Source: Aquimarina mycalae (lineage in GTDB: Bacteria > Bacteroidota > Bacteroidia > Flavobacteriales > Flavobacteriaceae). Taken from it: a stretch of DNA of 64,000 bases. Shown piece by piece: positions 58,418-62,109 of the stretch. The position numbers were made by a program, and so were the translations under genes. The stretch covers positions 248,001-312,000 of the forward strand of contig NZ_JARYGY010000007.1 of the NCBI RefSeq assembly GCF_029906345.1. Direction: 5' to 3'. The notes under the pieces are model-generated. The model saw only the letters and a program-made list of their open reading frames with translations. It was not told where the DNA came from and made no database searches. Each line of letters begins with the position of its first letter. Within the stretch, counting starts at the first letter, position 1.

Positions 58418-58849
58418 ATGTCAATATCTGATTTATTTGATAGTGGGTTTCAGAAAAGAAACCAGGATCACTTTGCAGCAATCGTAAAAGTGGCGATGAG
58501 CGATGGAGTAATTACTGATGGAGAGAAGGCCTTTTTAGATAGGTTGGCTCGTAATTTAGATATTTCTGAAGAACATTATAAAGAAATCCTTAAGAATTAT
58601 CAATCACATCCTATTAATCCTCCTACAAGTTATGATAGAAGATTAGAGCGTTTATATGATTTATCTAGAATGGTATACGTAGATCATATAGAAGGTAATG
58701 CTGAGTTAGTGATTCTTGAGAAGTTGGGTGTTGGTCTTGGATTTAGTCCAGATAATGTAAAATATGTTATCGACAAAGCACTTAAATTGGTTCGCAAAGG
58801 TGTGGATAGTGATACTTTTGTTGAAGAAATAAAAAATATGAATCGATAA
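58418..58849 (+). CDS. TerB-family protein
   Basis: A 143-residue all-helical protein of the TerB/TerB-like family. VAMSDGVITDGEKAFLDRLARNL is the metal-binding acidic stretch (D-G-x-x-x-x-E-x) at about residues 26-48, and DHIEGNAELVILEKLGVGLGF is its second half. TerB proteins were first linked to tellurite resistance and are now seen as membrane-stress adaptors. It is a single gene, not part of a ter cluster. A shared terminator follows. Confidence 0.88.
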   Translation: MSISDLFDSGFQKRNQDHFAAIVKVAMSDGVITDGEKAFLDRLARNLDISEEHYKEILKNYQSHPINPPTSYDRRLERLYDLSRMVYVDHIEGNAELVILEKLGVGLGFSPDNVKYVIDKALKLVRKGVDSDTFVEEIKNMNR

Positions 58850-58878: not shown

Positions 58879-58909
58879 AAAAAAGCCGCTTTTATGAAGC
58901 GGCTTTTTT
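58879..58909. terminator. Bidirectional terminator overlapping the histidine kinase 3' end
   Basis: AAAAAAGCCGCTT and AAGCGGCTTTTTT form a 13-bp stem with a 5-base loop. The convergent kinase gene stops inside the hairpin: its last codons, for Ala-Ala-Ser, are part of the stem. Confidence 0.85.
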
Positions 58910-60430
58910 GGCTATTTGTTTTACTATTTTGTAAATAAGATCTTCTTGTTCAAATGGTTTAGCTATAAAGTCATCCATTCCTGATCGTAAACATTTGTCT
59001 CGTTCAACTTCTGTTGCTTTTGCAGTAAACCCAATAATCGGAACTTCAGAAATTACCTTATCTCCATAATTATTCCTGATCATATGAGTAGCTTGATATC
59101 CATCTACCTTTGATAGTTTTAAATCCATAAGCACTAAATCATAGTTCCTTCGTTCTAAGTAACTGATTGCTTCTTCACCATTAATTGCTACATCGACAAA
59201 GAAACTACCATGACTTATCAGTACTTTCATAATCAAAAACTGAGTTGCTTCTTCATCCTCTACTACCAATACCCTAAACTTCTTTTTAGTATCTGGAAGG
59301 TTGTATTTTTTCTTTCTTTTTTGAGGAGTAGATTTTGTGACATCAAATTTAAAAGGCAGTTTGATATCAAAGACAGTTCCTTTTTCGGGTTGACTGGTTA
59401 CTTTTATTTCTCCGTTAAGCAAGTCAACTAAGTCTTTTACAATAGCTAAGCCAAGTCCGGTTCCTGAGATCTGTTTATCTTCATTAAATCGAGTAAATCT
59501 ATTAAATATAGTTGCTAGATTTTCTTCTTGAATACCAAAACCAGTATCTTCGATCTTAAAACTTATACTAAGCTTGTTAGTTCGTTGGTAATTTTTGGTT
59601 ACAGAAAGACGAACGATACCTTGCTCTGTAAATTTAAAAGCGTTATTAAGTATGTTATTTAAAATTTGGTATACTCGAGTTCTATCTCCAATGATGTATT
59701 CCTGTATATTAGGATCAATATAAGTTTCAAATTGTAATCCTTTTTCCTCTGCTAACTTAGTGTAGGTTTCTTTAAAACCTTCCATAAGATTTACAAATAA
59801 AAATCGTTCATCCACAATTTTTATTTTACCAGATTCAATCTTAGCAATATCGACCATATCTCCAATCAACTCATTTAAATGGAGACTTTGCCTCTTGATA
59901 ATTCTAGCCAATTCTTCCTGTTCAAAACTTAAATTAGTTTTCTCAAGTATTTCGACAAATCCTAAAATACTGGTTAAAGGTGTTCTAATTTCATGATTAA
60001 TATTTGCAATAAAACTGTTTTTGAATTTTTCCTTTTCAATCAGAAACTTGTTTTTGAGCTCTAATTCTTTTGTTTTAAGGATAGATTCATTTTTTTGCTG
60101 GGCAATTTTATTAAGCTCATAATATTTTGAAGTATAATCAAATAAAATGATTGTAATTTCTTGAGCGTTTAATTTTATTGTAACGTCACAAATTTTTTCA
60201 AGTGCTCCATCATCTAGATGGATACAAGGGAAATTATAAGTAGTTTCATCTTTTTCAAAAACCTCGATAAATCCCTTTATAATTTCAAAAAAAGGATGGG
60301 CATCATAGATTGAGGATTGAAGGTTCCACTTGAATATATTAGAATCAGTTTCCTGAATAATTCCATCGAGATTAACTACGATACGTTGTGTTTTTTGACT
60401 AAATAGTAATTTGTCTTCTTGGTGAGCCAT
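58892..60430 (-). CDS. Hybrid sensor histidine kinase/response regulator
   Basis: A 512-residue cytoplasmic hybrid kinase without membrane segments. Residues 1-105 look like a degenerate PAS sensor, 105-140 a coiled linker, 140-205 the dimerisation domain with phospho-acceptor H146 in NINHEIRTPLTSI, 245-360 the ATPase domain (NNILNNAFKF, EDTGFGI, GTGLGLAI), and 385-505 a receiver with D436 in LMDLKLSKVDGY. No output domain follows, so phosphate may pass on to another protein. It starts 4 bases after the stop of a Ras-like GTPase gene, which suggests that the GTPase module controls the kinase. Confidence 0.92.
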   Translation of the reverse strand: MAHQEDKLLFSQKTQRIVVNLDGIIQETDSNIFKWNLQSSIYDAHPFFEIIKGFIEVFEKDETTYNFPCIHLDDGALEKICDVTIKLNAQEITIILFDYTSKYYELNKIAQQKNESILKTKELELKNKFLIEKEKFKNSFIANINHEIRTPLTSILGFVEILEKTNLSFEQEELARIIKRQSLHLNELIGDMVDIAKIESGKIKIVDERFLFVNLMEGFKETYTKLAEEKGLQFETYIDPNIQEYIIGDRTRVYQILNNILNNAFKFTEQGIVRLSVTKNYQRTNKLSISFKIEDTGFGIQEENLATIFNRFTRFNEDKQISGTGLGLAIVKDLVDLLNGEIKVTSQPEKGTVFDIKLPFKFDVTKSTPQKRKKKYNLPDTKKKFRVLVVEDEEATQFLIMKVLISHGSFFVDVAINGEEAISYLERRNYDLVLMDLKLSKVDGYQATHMIRNNYGDKVISEVPIIGFTAKATEVERDKCLRSGMDDFIAKPFEQEDLIYKIVKQIAKKAAS

Positions 60431-60434
60431 AACA

Positions 60435-60932
60435 CTAGGTGGTTAATTCCTTAGCAAGATCTAAGAAGAAATCTTGCACGTTTTTATTAGTTTTAGCACT
60501 AGTTAGGCAATCAAAATTGATATTTTGCTCCTTAAGTTTTTTTATAGTGTCCTTTTCGTTAACCTTATCCAATTTATTACCAATAACCTTGATATTTACT
60601 TTTGGGTGGTTTTTAGAAAGGTATGCTAAATCTTGATCCAAATTTTGGTAAGTGTCAATTCTGGTTAGATCAAATACGTAAATAAACGCATTAGATCCTA
60701 ATAGATATGATTTTCTAGTATCTTCAATATCTGCGTGACCTTCTGTATCCCAAATAATCATTGAGAGTTCTCTGCCGTCAGGCATTTCAACTACTTTCTT
60801 TTTAATCTGAACACCAAGTGTAACTTTATAATCTTCAGAAAATTCGTTGTCGATAAAACGTCTGAATAACGACGTTTTTCCAACACCAAAGTGTCCTAAA
60901 AGCACTACTTTTTTAGACAATTTCATCTTCAA
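60435..60932 (-). CDS. Small Ras-like GTPase (Rab/Arf-type domain)
   Basis: A 165-residue protein that is just a Ras-superfamily G domain. G1 is GHFGVGKTS (residues 13-21, Lys K19), G3 is WDTEGHADI (61-69), G4 is GNKLDK (118-123) and G5 is TSAK (144-147); a threonine in KVTLGVQI fits G2. The position of catalytic Gln61 of Ras is His (H66) and Ala59 is Glu (E64), which would predict slow intrinsic GTP hydrolysis. The first 20 bases overlap the 3' end of the roadblock/longin-like gene, the usual partner type for prokaryotic GTPases such as MglA. No lipid anchor motif is at the C-terminus. Confidence 0.9.
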   Translation of the reverse strand: MKMKLSKKVVLLGHFGVGKTSLFRRFIDNEFSEDYKVTLGVQIKKKVVEMPDGRELSMIIWDTEGHADIEDTRKSYLLGSNAFIYVFDLTRIDTYQNLDQDLAYLSKNHPKVNIKVIGNKLDKVNEKDTIKKLKEQNINFDCLTSAKTNKNVQDFFLDLAKELTT

Positions 60933-61737
60933 AATGTTTTTTTAATTTTTTGGTAAAAAGCTCACTATTTTCTATATCTCGTTTGGAAATATGATGTTGA
61001 GCAAAATCAATAATTTGATCTTCTAATACTTCCTTAAACATCATATTATATGCTCCAGAAATAACAGCGGCAATATAATACGAATAAAAATTTTGGATAT
61101 GAATTGTATACAATTCATATTCTATGGCTTCCAGATTTTGATTTCCTCCCTGAAAAGCATCTTCTACAAAACTCTTAATGGCTGTTAGCATACCTGCAAC
61201 CATATCTTTATCTACAGTACCTTCTCCTAATGGACTATAATCTGTTATGAGTAATCCAGAATCTTTTTCAACCACAAACATTTGGATTAACCTGGGTTTG
61301 GCATATTCTGATATGGCCAGATCGCCATCGCTAATTCCTTGTGCTCTGGCTTTGGTTCTTTTAAACCAATTTCTAAAAGAAAATGCTTGTTTGGTTTTTT
61401 TGTTAATGTTTTCACTTAAAAGTTTCATTTCATGAGCAATATATTTCTTTATCATCTTACCGATAATAGGAAATAATGCTTCTACAACTGCATCTTGTGA
61501 ATTCTTAATTTCTTCCTTTAGGGCTTCTGTAATTGTTGGTCCAAGAGTTTTTGGGATTTCTTGAACAAATTCATCCAATTTATCATCTATAATAGGATCA
61601 ACCTTGTGAGAAAGTTCTTGTTTTTGGTGAACAATTTTACTTAACTCATCTACTTTTCTAGCAATGGAATCTGCATACTCCTTTTCTTCAGTGAGAAGAA
61701 GTTCTTTAAGAATTTTGAGTTTATCCTGCTCTTCCAT
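60913..61737 (-). CDS. Coiled-coil protein with roadblock/longin-like C-terminal domain
   Basis: A 274-residue cytoplasmic protein. Residues 1-60 are charged helical (EEKEYADSIARKVDELSKI), residues 60-105 contain IIDDKLDEFVQEIPKTLGPTI and a helical IIGKMIKKYIAHEMK, and after a basic linker (RNWFKRTKARAQG) comes a C-terminal domain from about residue 150. That domain alternates strands and helices (RLIQMFVVEKDSGLLITDY, MLTAIKSFVEDAF, EYELYTIHIQNFYSYYIAAVISG) as in roadblock/LC7 or longin folds. By analogy with MglB it may regulate or hold the GTPase encoded next, with which it overlaps by 20 bases. The assignment is by fold pattern, not by a recognised family. Confidence 0.65.
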   Translation of the reverse strand: MEEQDKLKILKELLLTEEKEYADSIARKVDELSKIVHQKQELSHKVDPIIDDKLDEFVQEIPKTLGPTITEALKEEIKNSQDAVVEALFPIIGKMIKKYIAHEMKLLSENINKKTKQAFSFRNWFKRTKARAQGISDGDLAISEYAKPRLIQMFVVEKDSGLLITDYSPLGEGTVDKDMVAGMLTAIKSFVEDAFQGGNQNLEAIEYELYTIHIQNFYSYYIAAVISGAYNMMFKEVLEDQIIDFAQHHISKRDIENSELFTKKLKKHFEDEIV

Positions 61738-61755
61738 GTTTTTGGATAGATTGGA

Positions 61756-62109
61756 TTACTTTTTATTAATTTTTTCACCCATAGCAATCAAAAGATCACC
61801 TAATGTCTTTCTATCTACTTTTTTAGAATCCAGCATTTCTACTTTATCCGCCAGATTATCTTCTAATTCTGTGATTCTAATGTTTATATCAGTACTAAGG
61901 TTATCGATTGCTTGATTTAATTCTTTACGAGTATCGTCTATAAAATCTTCCAGCTCTCTTTTTTTAGAAGAAATATCTTTTTTTACTGTTTCGAATTCAG
62001 AATTATAAGCAGCAATGTTTTCTCCAAAAATCAGATTTTTTATTGCTTCTATTTTTGAGGATGGATCGTTTACTACTGGTTCTTCAACAGCTTTATTTTC
62101 TTTGGCCAT
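61756..62109 (-). CDS. Small coiled-coil protein, first gene of GTPase operon
   Basis: A 117-residue acidic protein. After a disordered start (MAKENKAVEEPVVNDPSS), residues 20-100 are almost all helical with heptad patterns (ETVKKDISSKKRELEDFIDD, ITELEDNLADKVEMLDSKK), which predicts a long coiled coil; the end DRKTLGDLLIAMGEKINKK is a short amphipathic helix. I recognise no family. It is 18 bases upstream of the roadblock/longin-like gene, which has similar DELSK-type helices, so the two may form a complex. A role as scaffold for the GTPase is inference from position. Confidence 0.65.
   Translation of the reverse strand: MAKENKAVEEPVVNDPSSKIEAIKNLIFGENIAAYNSEFETVKKDISSKKRELEDFIDDTRKELNQAIDNLSTDINIRITELEDNLADKVEMLDSKKVDRKTLGDLLIAMGEKINKK

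Follow-up and report, generated by a model that had tools for sequence, protein, structure and literature searches.

The closest described relatives of the genes considered here belong to the Rup family of GTPases, which was defined, together with its Group 1, by Wuichet and Sogaard-Andersen in 2014 (PMC4316618). In the accessible parts of that paper, Group 1 Rup proteins are said to resemble strongly the eukaryotic Rab, Ran, Ras and Rho GTPases, with Mesorhizobium loti named among the carriers, and their gene neighborhoods are described as encoding a coiled-coil protein, a protein with a conserved domain of unknown function that is often followed by a transmembrane (TM) helix and an OmpA domain, and an output module, namely a diguanylate cyclase/phosphodiesterase or a histidine kinase with an invariant N-terminal Gln (PMC4316618). 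The same parts report that the Group 1 GTPases are without the Gln of the G3 motif and propose that a Gln is supplied in trans; as of 2014, no Rup protein had been experimentally studied, and the partner domain was unassigned (PMC4316618). Here, we analyzed a four-gene set from Aquimarina mycalae (Flavobacteriaceae; RefSeq assembly GCF_029906345.1, contig NZ_JARYGY010000007.1), located in a stretch of 64,000 nucleotides (contig positions 248,001 to 312,000, hereafter the window), and we file it, with reservation, as a Flavobacteriaceae variant of the Group 1 Rup system as that system is described in the accessible text, the match being one of features rather than of sequences.

The whole set occupies 3.2 kb, with all genes co-directional on the minus strand at positions 58892-62109 of the window, and encodes a coiled-coil protein, a 274-amino acid (aa) partner protein, a stand-alone GTPase and a hybrid histidine kinase (Table 1). 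The filing was made because a coiled coil, a conserved-domain partner, a GTPase devoid of the G3 Gln and an output protein with an invariant Gln are all present. The first-pass annotation of this DNA, made from the letters and a list of open reading frames (ORFs), knew of no named system with such a set, a claim that can be corrected, given that the set fits Group 1 Rup as outlined in the portions of the 2014 paper open to us. The Gln of the 2014 logo may correspond to Gln111 in the window kinase, and the GTPases of the two data sets are bridged only by the Mesorhizobium taxon. From that genus, a plasmid operon of Mesorhizobium sp. (L107) is annotated as encoding a hypothetical protein, an OmpA family protein, a Rab family GTPase and an adenylate/guanylate cyclase domain protein. 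The highest Kyte-Doolittle 19-residue mean over the four window proteins is only 1.75, for which reason all four look soluble. Neither the coiled-coil protein nor the 274-aa protein matched any Pfam family above its cut-off, and the coiled-coil state is a judgment from the sequence, made without a coiled-coil program.

The GTPase is clearly of Ras/Rab type. It matches Pfam Ras (PF00071, E-value 5.8e-31) and Roc (1.2e-23), carries eukaryote-like G1 to G5 motifs (including G1 GHFGVGKT, G3 WDTEG-H, NKLD and TSAK), and finds its best matches in the Protein Data Bank (PDB) among Rabs (Rab14, Rab1 and Rab12 chains, E-value 7.5e-22). The residue following the G3 Gly is N, E, F, H, S, T or G across the 33 GTPases aligned and Gln in none of them, the window protein having His, and position 12 of the P-loop is Phe in 30 of the 33. 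Together, the Phe and the missing Gln suggest that GTP hydrolysis by this protein probably requires a partner. The true start of the gene may be an ATG at 60926, the third codon of the ORF listed for the window, where most relatives outside the genus begin (their ORFs having been called from ATG starts only); if so, the GTPase has 163 aa and overlaps the upstream gene by 14 rather than 20 bases. The four minus-strand ORFs and the spacers of +18, -20 and +4 bases given in the first-pass annotation are correct for the listed starts. The genome has one more GTPase match, a weak one (G000:C26:12840-13175, L072 and L080; E-value 1.1e-5), which lies outside the window within an ORF of 1110 aa, perhaps a Roco-type protein.

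The output protein matches HisKA, HATPase_c and Response_reg, shows no TM segment by hydropathy, and carries H146, N263, D392, D436 and K491, so that the relay residues are intact in the window genome; with the Pfam Ras match, this bears out the annotation of a stand-alone Ras-like GTPase beside a soluble hybrid kinase. In an AlphaFold2 model, its N-terminal domain (N-domain) is predicted to run β-β-α-β-β-β and then into a 64-residue helix (residues 100-163), which holds both Gln111 and the phospho-accepting H146. Among 29 output and N-domain proteins chosen for alignment, comprising hybrid kinases, simple kinases, sigma-54 activators, cyclases and stand-alone domains, the single fully invariant column is Gln111. 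The domain may be called PAS-like from the predicted order of its elements and from Foldseek matches to the kinase model, which are whole-kinase matches that include some LOV and phytochrome kinases. The list of VIA matches to the same model was taken up by the kinase and receiver domains, no Pfam family was matched by more than one of 26 N-domain members, and the top PDB profile match is a sensor protein at an E-value of 1.

Across 21 aligned kinases, H146 is kept in all, and the receiver Asp436 is replaced by Lys in 10 (L046-L054 and L058), a pseudo-receiver lineage, sister to that of the window, whose receiver, judging from this substitution, cannot be phosphorylated at the Asp436 site. Elsewhere, the place of the kinase is taken by a sigma-54 activator (L073 and L076) or a class III cyclase (L107), and further outputs are a kinase with Hpt (L096 and L106) and a kinase followed by a sigma-54 response regulator (L077 and L100). 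Thus, the proposal that the GTP state gates a phosphorelay may hold for the window genome, where the relay residues are intact, but it is ruled out as a general function because of the Lys receivers in 10 of the 21 kinases and the existence of the other output types.

For the 274-aa partner, a low-confidence AlphaFold2 model shows the longin/roadblock fold (β-β-α-β-β-β-α-α) in the C-terminal domain, and in fold searches this predicted fold matches entries of Mon1-Ccz1, TRAPP and BLOC-3. The domain of unknown function of the 2014 Group 1 Rup neighborhoods is, on this low-confidence model, predicted to be a longin/roadblock-superfamily domain. A GTPase module whose partner has a longin/roadblock-like C terminus had been put forward in the first-pass annotation, together with structure prediction as a check, and prediction favors it: the model of the 274-residue protein, low in confidence as it is, contains a longin-like fold rather than lacking one. 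The longin region aligned with roadblock in hhalign at 51.6%, consistent with a distant profile relation, versus 0.07% with the kinase N-domain, 4.2% with the GTPase, and 0.22% for the reversed longin profile with roadblock. No roadblock chain occurs among the 50 VIA matches listed for the partner, with which roadblock remains compatible. The window partner also aligns with the proteins of L073, L076 and L077 that bear OmpA by Pfam, and the L073 partner matches a Nostoc plasmid over 94% of its length. No assignment of a longin fold to the Rup partner was found in the accessible portions of the open-access literature, including PMC4917890 and PMC2651865.

The four-gene arrangement is conserved. 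A scan of the genome collection yielded 58 loci, mostly from Aquimarina and also from Marinirhabdus, Aureisphaera, Aureitalea, Ulvibacter, Spongiivirga and metagenome-assembled genomes; L059-L066, covered by longer stretches, were left out, and the weak GTPase matches L067-L071 stand outside the counts. Four-gene order is kept in 57 of the 58 fetched relatives (L056 being included despite a split 274-aa gene), with the exception, L055, reaching a contig end, and this constancy rules out chance clustering. The 274-aa gene, the GTPase and the kinase are no more than 120 bases apart in 47 of the 58. Within the genus, a profile of the 274-aa family found members in 65 of 66 genomes; the corresponding counts are 45 of 199 in the family sample and 14 of 395 in the phylum sample, each including the window's own genome. 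Alignment A1 comprised 35 rows (the window plus 34 of the 58), A2 comprised 21 (the window plus 20 of the 58), A4 comprised 27, and A5 contained 26 from the 30 roadblock loci that a search gave. A split gene or in-frame stops within the match mark the 274-aa copies of L056 and of two draft genomes, G453 and G454; these copies were kept unaltered, and assembly errors or decay may account for them.

Additional loci were found elsewhere in the phylum and on Nostoc, Mesorhizobium and Rhizobium plasmids, so the synteny search proposed at first pass found the gene set kept beyond close relatives. All four parts are carried by 13 of 20 profiled stretches; three are carried by L101, where a profile search of the stretch did not find the coiled coil. 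Ten of the 13 have their genes on one strand, running from coiled coil through partner and GTPase to output, and the remainder (L077, L099 and L100) are divergent, while three genomes split the set, with coiled coil and partner (L103-L105) apart from the GTPase and two Gln-domain proteins (L074, L075 and L079). The seven split or divergent cases, L101 included, divide as coiled coil plus partner versus GTPase plus output. Of 16 loci that hold the partner gene and lie outside the family or on plasmids, 15 have a coiled-coil relative close to it, L101 being the exception; the sets searched were small and the profiles drew in part on the very loci scanned, so their E-values are not independent. 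By eye, the coiled-coil and partner proteins of distant loci seem to begin similarly (IRxLLFGxQ and LRxLLxGPE), and they may share ancestry.

Apparent duplications link the GTPase with the Gln-bearing N-domain. In the Flavobacteriaceae loci L049, L050 and L052-L054, two GTPases flank a stand-alone N-domain protein of 198-201 aa, while L051 and L058 retain a 116-aa N-domain protein ahead of the only GTPase found (examples of the stand-alone copies are L049:7295-7897 and L051:6874-7224). In a midpoint-rooted GTPase tree, the window protein groups with the first GTPases of the two-GTPase loci (support 0.96), and the second GTPases group with those that occur singly in L046-L048, L051 and L058 (0.97). 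The N-domain tree places the window with the stand-alone domains (0.80) and the kinases of L046-L054 and L058 together (0.98). From these trees, the GTPase and the Gln-bearing N-domain seem to have undergone duplication and loss in pairs, and a partnership between the two is suggested.

We moderately favor, as the explanation for the whole, a Group 1 Rup variant in which a longin-type partner sets the state of the GTPase and the GTPase switches the output protein through its N-domain. The coiled coil and the partner would form a sensing and scaffolding half, possibly anchored in the envelope, in many relatives, by the TM segment and OmpA domain, and soluble in the window. By analogy with longin and roadblock dimers, the longin domain would bind the GTPase, and it might control the nucleotide state as an exchange factor or as a platform for GTPase activation. 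In its GTP state, the GTPase would then dock on the output N-domain and switch the output protein, which is a soluble hybrid kinase in the window and, in other loci, a nucleotide cyclase or an activator of sigma-54. As suggested in the accessible text of PMC4316618, hydrolysis of GTP may be completed in trans by the invariant Gln, which would make the output protein both effector and timer.

The alternative that survives best, and that we still consider unlikely, is a reverse, conservon-like flow, in which the kinase is the sensory input through its PAS-like domain, the GTPase is the output, and the longin-type protein is its exchange factor. Conservons lack a response regulator, and the GTPase is posited as their output in the parts of PMC4316618 available. 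The predicted element order of the N-domain is that of a common sensor fold, the N-domain stands alone in the seven loci named above, and the absence of the receiver phospho-Asp from 10 of 21 kinases implies that phosphotransfer to the receiver is not always the product. However, the loci scanned may close with a gene for a sigma-54 activator, for a cyclase, or for a kinase beside a sigma-54 response regulator, and such output types are usually the ends of pathways.

Several observations weigh against the favored Group 1 Rup explanation with its longin-type partner. Gln111 lies within the predicted long helix behind the N-domain and could couple rather than catalyze; L057 falls with the first GTPases in one tree, whereas the N-domain tree places it, at an unsupported node (0.41), among the other kinases; and the window partner, which has neither a TM segment nor an OmpA tail by hydropathy and Pfam, misses a tail found in relatives. 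The AlphaFold2 model of the partner, built from close relatives, has a mean predicted local distance difference test score (pLDDT) of 55 (47.9-55.0 over five models), falling to 40-52 at residues 171-210; its best VIA alignments came from the untrimmed model, and the fold-search tool cautions that low-confidence models yield meaningless matches. At the sequence level, the longin matches (Fuz_longin_1, 0.012; Intu_longin_1, 0.016; BET5, 0.6) are not significant alone, the unrelated Peptidase_M16_C outscores them (0.0057), serine racemase ranks beside BET5 (E-value 0.77), and the window partner sequence itself matches no Pfam family. A second alternative, which we hold to be quite improbable, draws on the low pLDDT and on these insignificant longin-family matches: the partner domain would be another PAS-like or profilin-like α/β domain that resembles longin by an accident of the model, and PAS, profilin, longin and roadblock do have a common core according to the accessible parts of PMC3521125 and PMC10933270.

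Weakest, and very improbable, is the first-pass reading of an MglA/MglB-type motility or polarity module controlling gliding: a GTPase and a longin/roadblock-type partner are present and the gliding gene GldJ is found in the window genome, but neither the partner protein nor the genome (at E 0.001) has a match to Robl_LC7 (PF03259), the GTPase best matches Rabs among solved structures, relatives of the module occur on Nostoc and Mesorhizobium plasmids, and GldJ was found in 197 of 199 family genomes (190 above cut-off) versus 45 of 199 for the 274-aa protein. Since GldJ is near-universal in the family sample and the module is not, the module does not track gliding genes, and we reject a gliding role of that type on the Robl_LC7, Rab and GldJ results together.

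A broader extension of the Group 1 Rup reading is possible and, in our view, on the doubtful side: that these are bacterial Rab-longin pairs, with partners homologous to the eukaryotic longin exchange factors of Rabs and a shared origin in or with a bacterial cassette, and with outputs that act as Gln-donating effectors. A longin-type partner, if true, would give a concrete biochemical hypothesis on which protein loads the switch and which resets it; it would also inform the question of how longin regulators came to act on Rab GTPases. The window version is compact, with its full set of soluble proteins encoded in 3.2 kb, so the four could be produced and combined in vitro.

The features of the set are collected in Table 1. 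Beyond it, a gene for a TerB-like protein (58418-58849, plus strand; Pfam TerB, 8.3e-7) converges on the kinase gene; 55 of the 58 fetched loci likewise have it on the opposing strand, and it may be a neighbor by synteny only.

Table 1. Positions, in window coordinates, of the four genes and of the domains and codons discussed in the text
Feature	Position	Strand	Description and basis
Coiled-coil protein, first gene	61756-62109	-	117 aa, soluble; ORF list
274-aa partner protein	60913-61737	-	N-terminal helices and predicted C-terminal longin/roadblock-superfamily domain
Predicted longin-like domain, partner residues 148-274	60916-61296	-	Structure model
Stand-alone Rab/Ras-like GTPase, Group 1 Rup type	60435-60932	-	165 aa from TTG; Pfam Ras
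His codon where the usual G3 catalytic Gln would stand (GTPase)	60735-60737	-	Alignment of 33
Soluble hybrid histidine kinase, output module	58892-60430	-	512 aa; HisKA, HATPase_c, Response_reg
Kinase N-terminal domain, about residues 1-125	60056-60430	-	PAS-like element order predicted
Invariant Gln111 codon of kinase	60098-60100	-	29/29 aligned output/N-domain proteins
Kinase receiver domain, residues 387-502	58925-59272	-	Pfam Response_reg 5.3e-24
Receiver phospho-acceptor Asp436 codon	59123-59125	-	Alignment of kinases

Among known systems, MglA/MglB likewise pairs a small GTPase with a regulator from the roadblock/longin superfamily. It differs in that the window set has a linked output module and no Robl_LC7 match; in the accessible text of PMC4316618, moreover, Rup GTPases are treated as a separate family and their clade is reported not to be coupled to MglB, so the comparison made at first pass does not carry over.

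Conservons (CvnA-D) also co-encode a kinase, a small GTPase and a roadblock-type partner (PMC4316618 and PMC13343842, as far as accessible), but their CvnD is described as an MglA homologue and their CvnB as an MglB homologue in the available parts of PMC4316618, whereas the window proteins are without Robl_LC7. Their kinase is a membrane protein with a C-terminal LPxR, in contrast to the soluble, hybrid window kinase, which ends in a receiver. The CvnC-type family is DUF742, and no such family is among the Pfam matches of the window proteins. Conservon membership is thus ruled out by the lack of Robl_LC7 and CvnC-type matches and by a kinase that is receiver-ended and has no TM segment.

With eukaryotic Rabs and their longin exchange factors (Mon1-Ccz1, TRAPP and BLOC-3), the set shares Rabs as the closest PDB relatives and a predicted partner fold that matches theirs; it is, however, bacterial, soluble and linked to a histidine kinase, and its longin similarity is not significant in sequence alone. 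With Group 1 Rup, as described in the accessible portions of the 2014 paper, it shares a GTPase without the G3 Gln, a coiled coil, a conserved-domain protein and an invariant-Gln output. The differences are that the window partner is soluble and predicted to be longin-like, that the output is a soluble hybrid kinase, and that relatives show sigma-54 activators and a class III cyclase as further outputs; a partner without the TM helix and OmpA domain is compatible with the "often" of that paper. The kind of system thus seems to have been catalogued in 2014, and relative to the literature searched, in the parts accessible, three things seem to be additions to it: the longin fold predicted for the partner, the apparent duplication of GTPase and N-domain as a pair, and the receivers in which Lys replaces the phospho-Asp.

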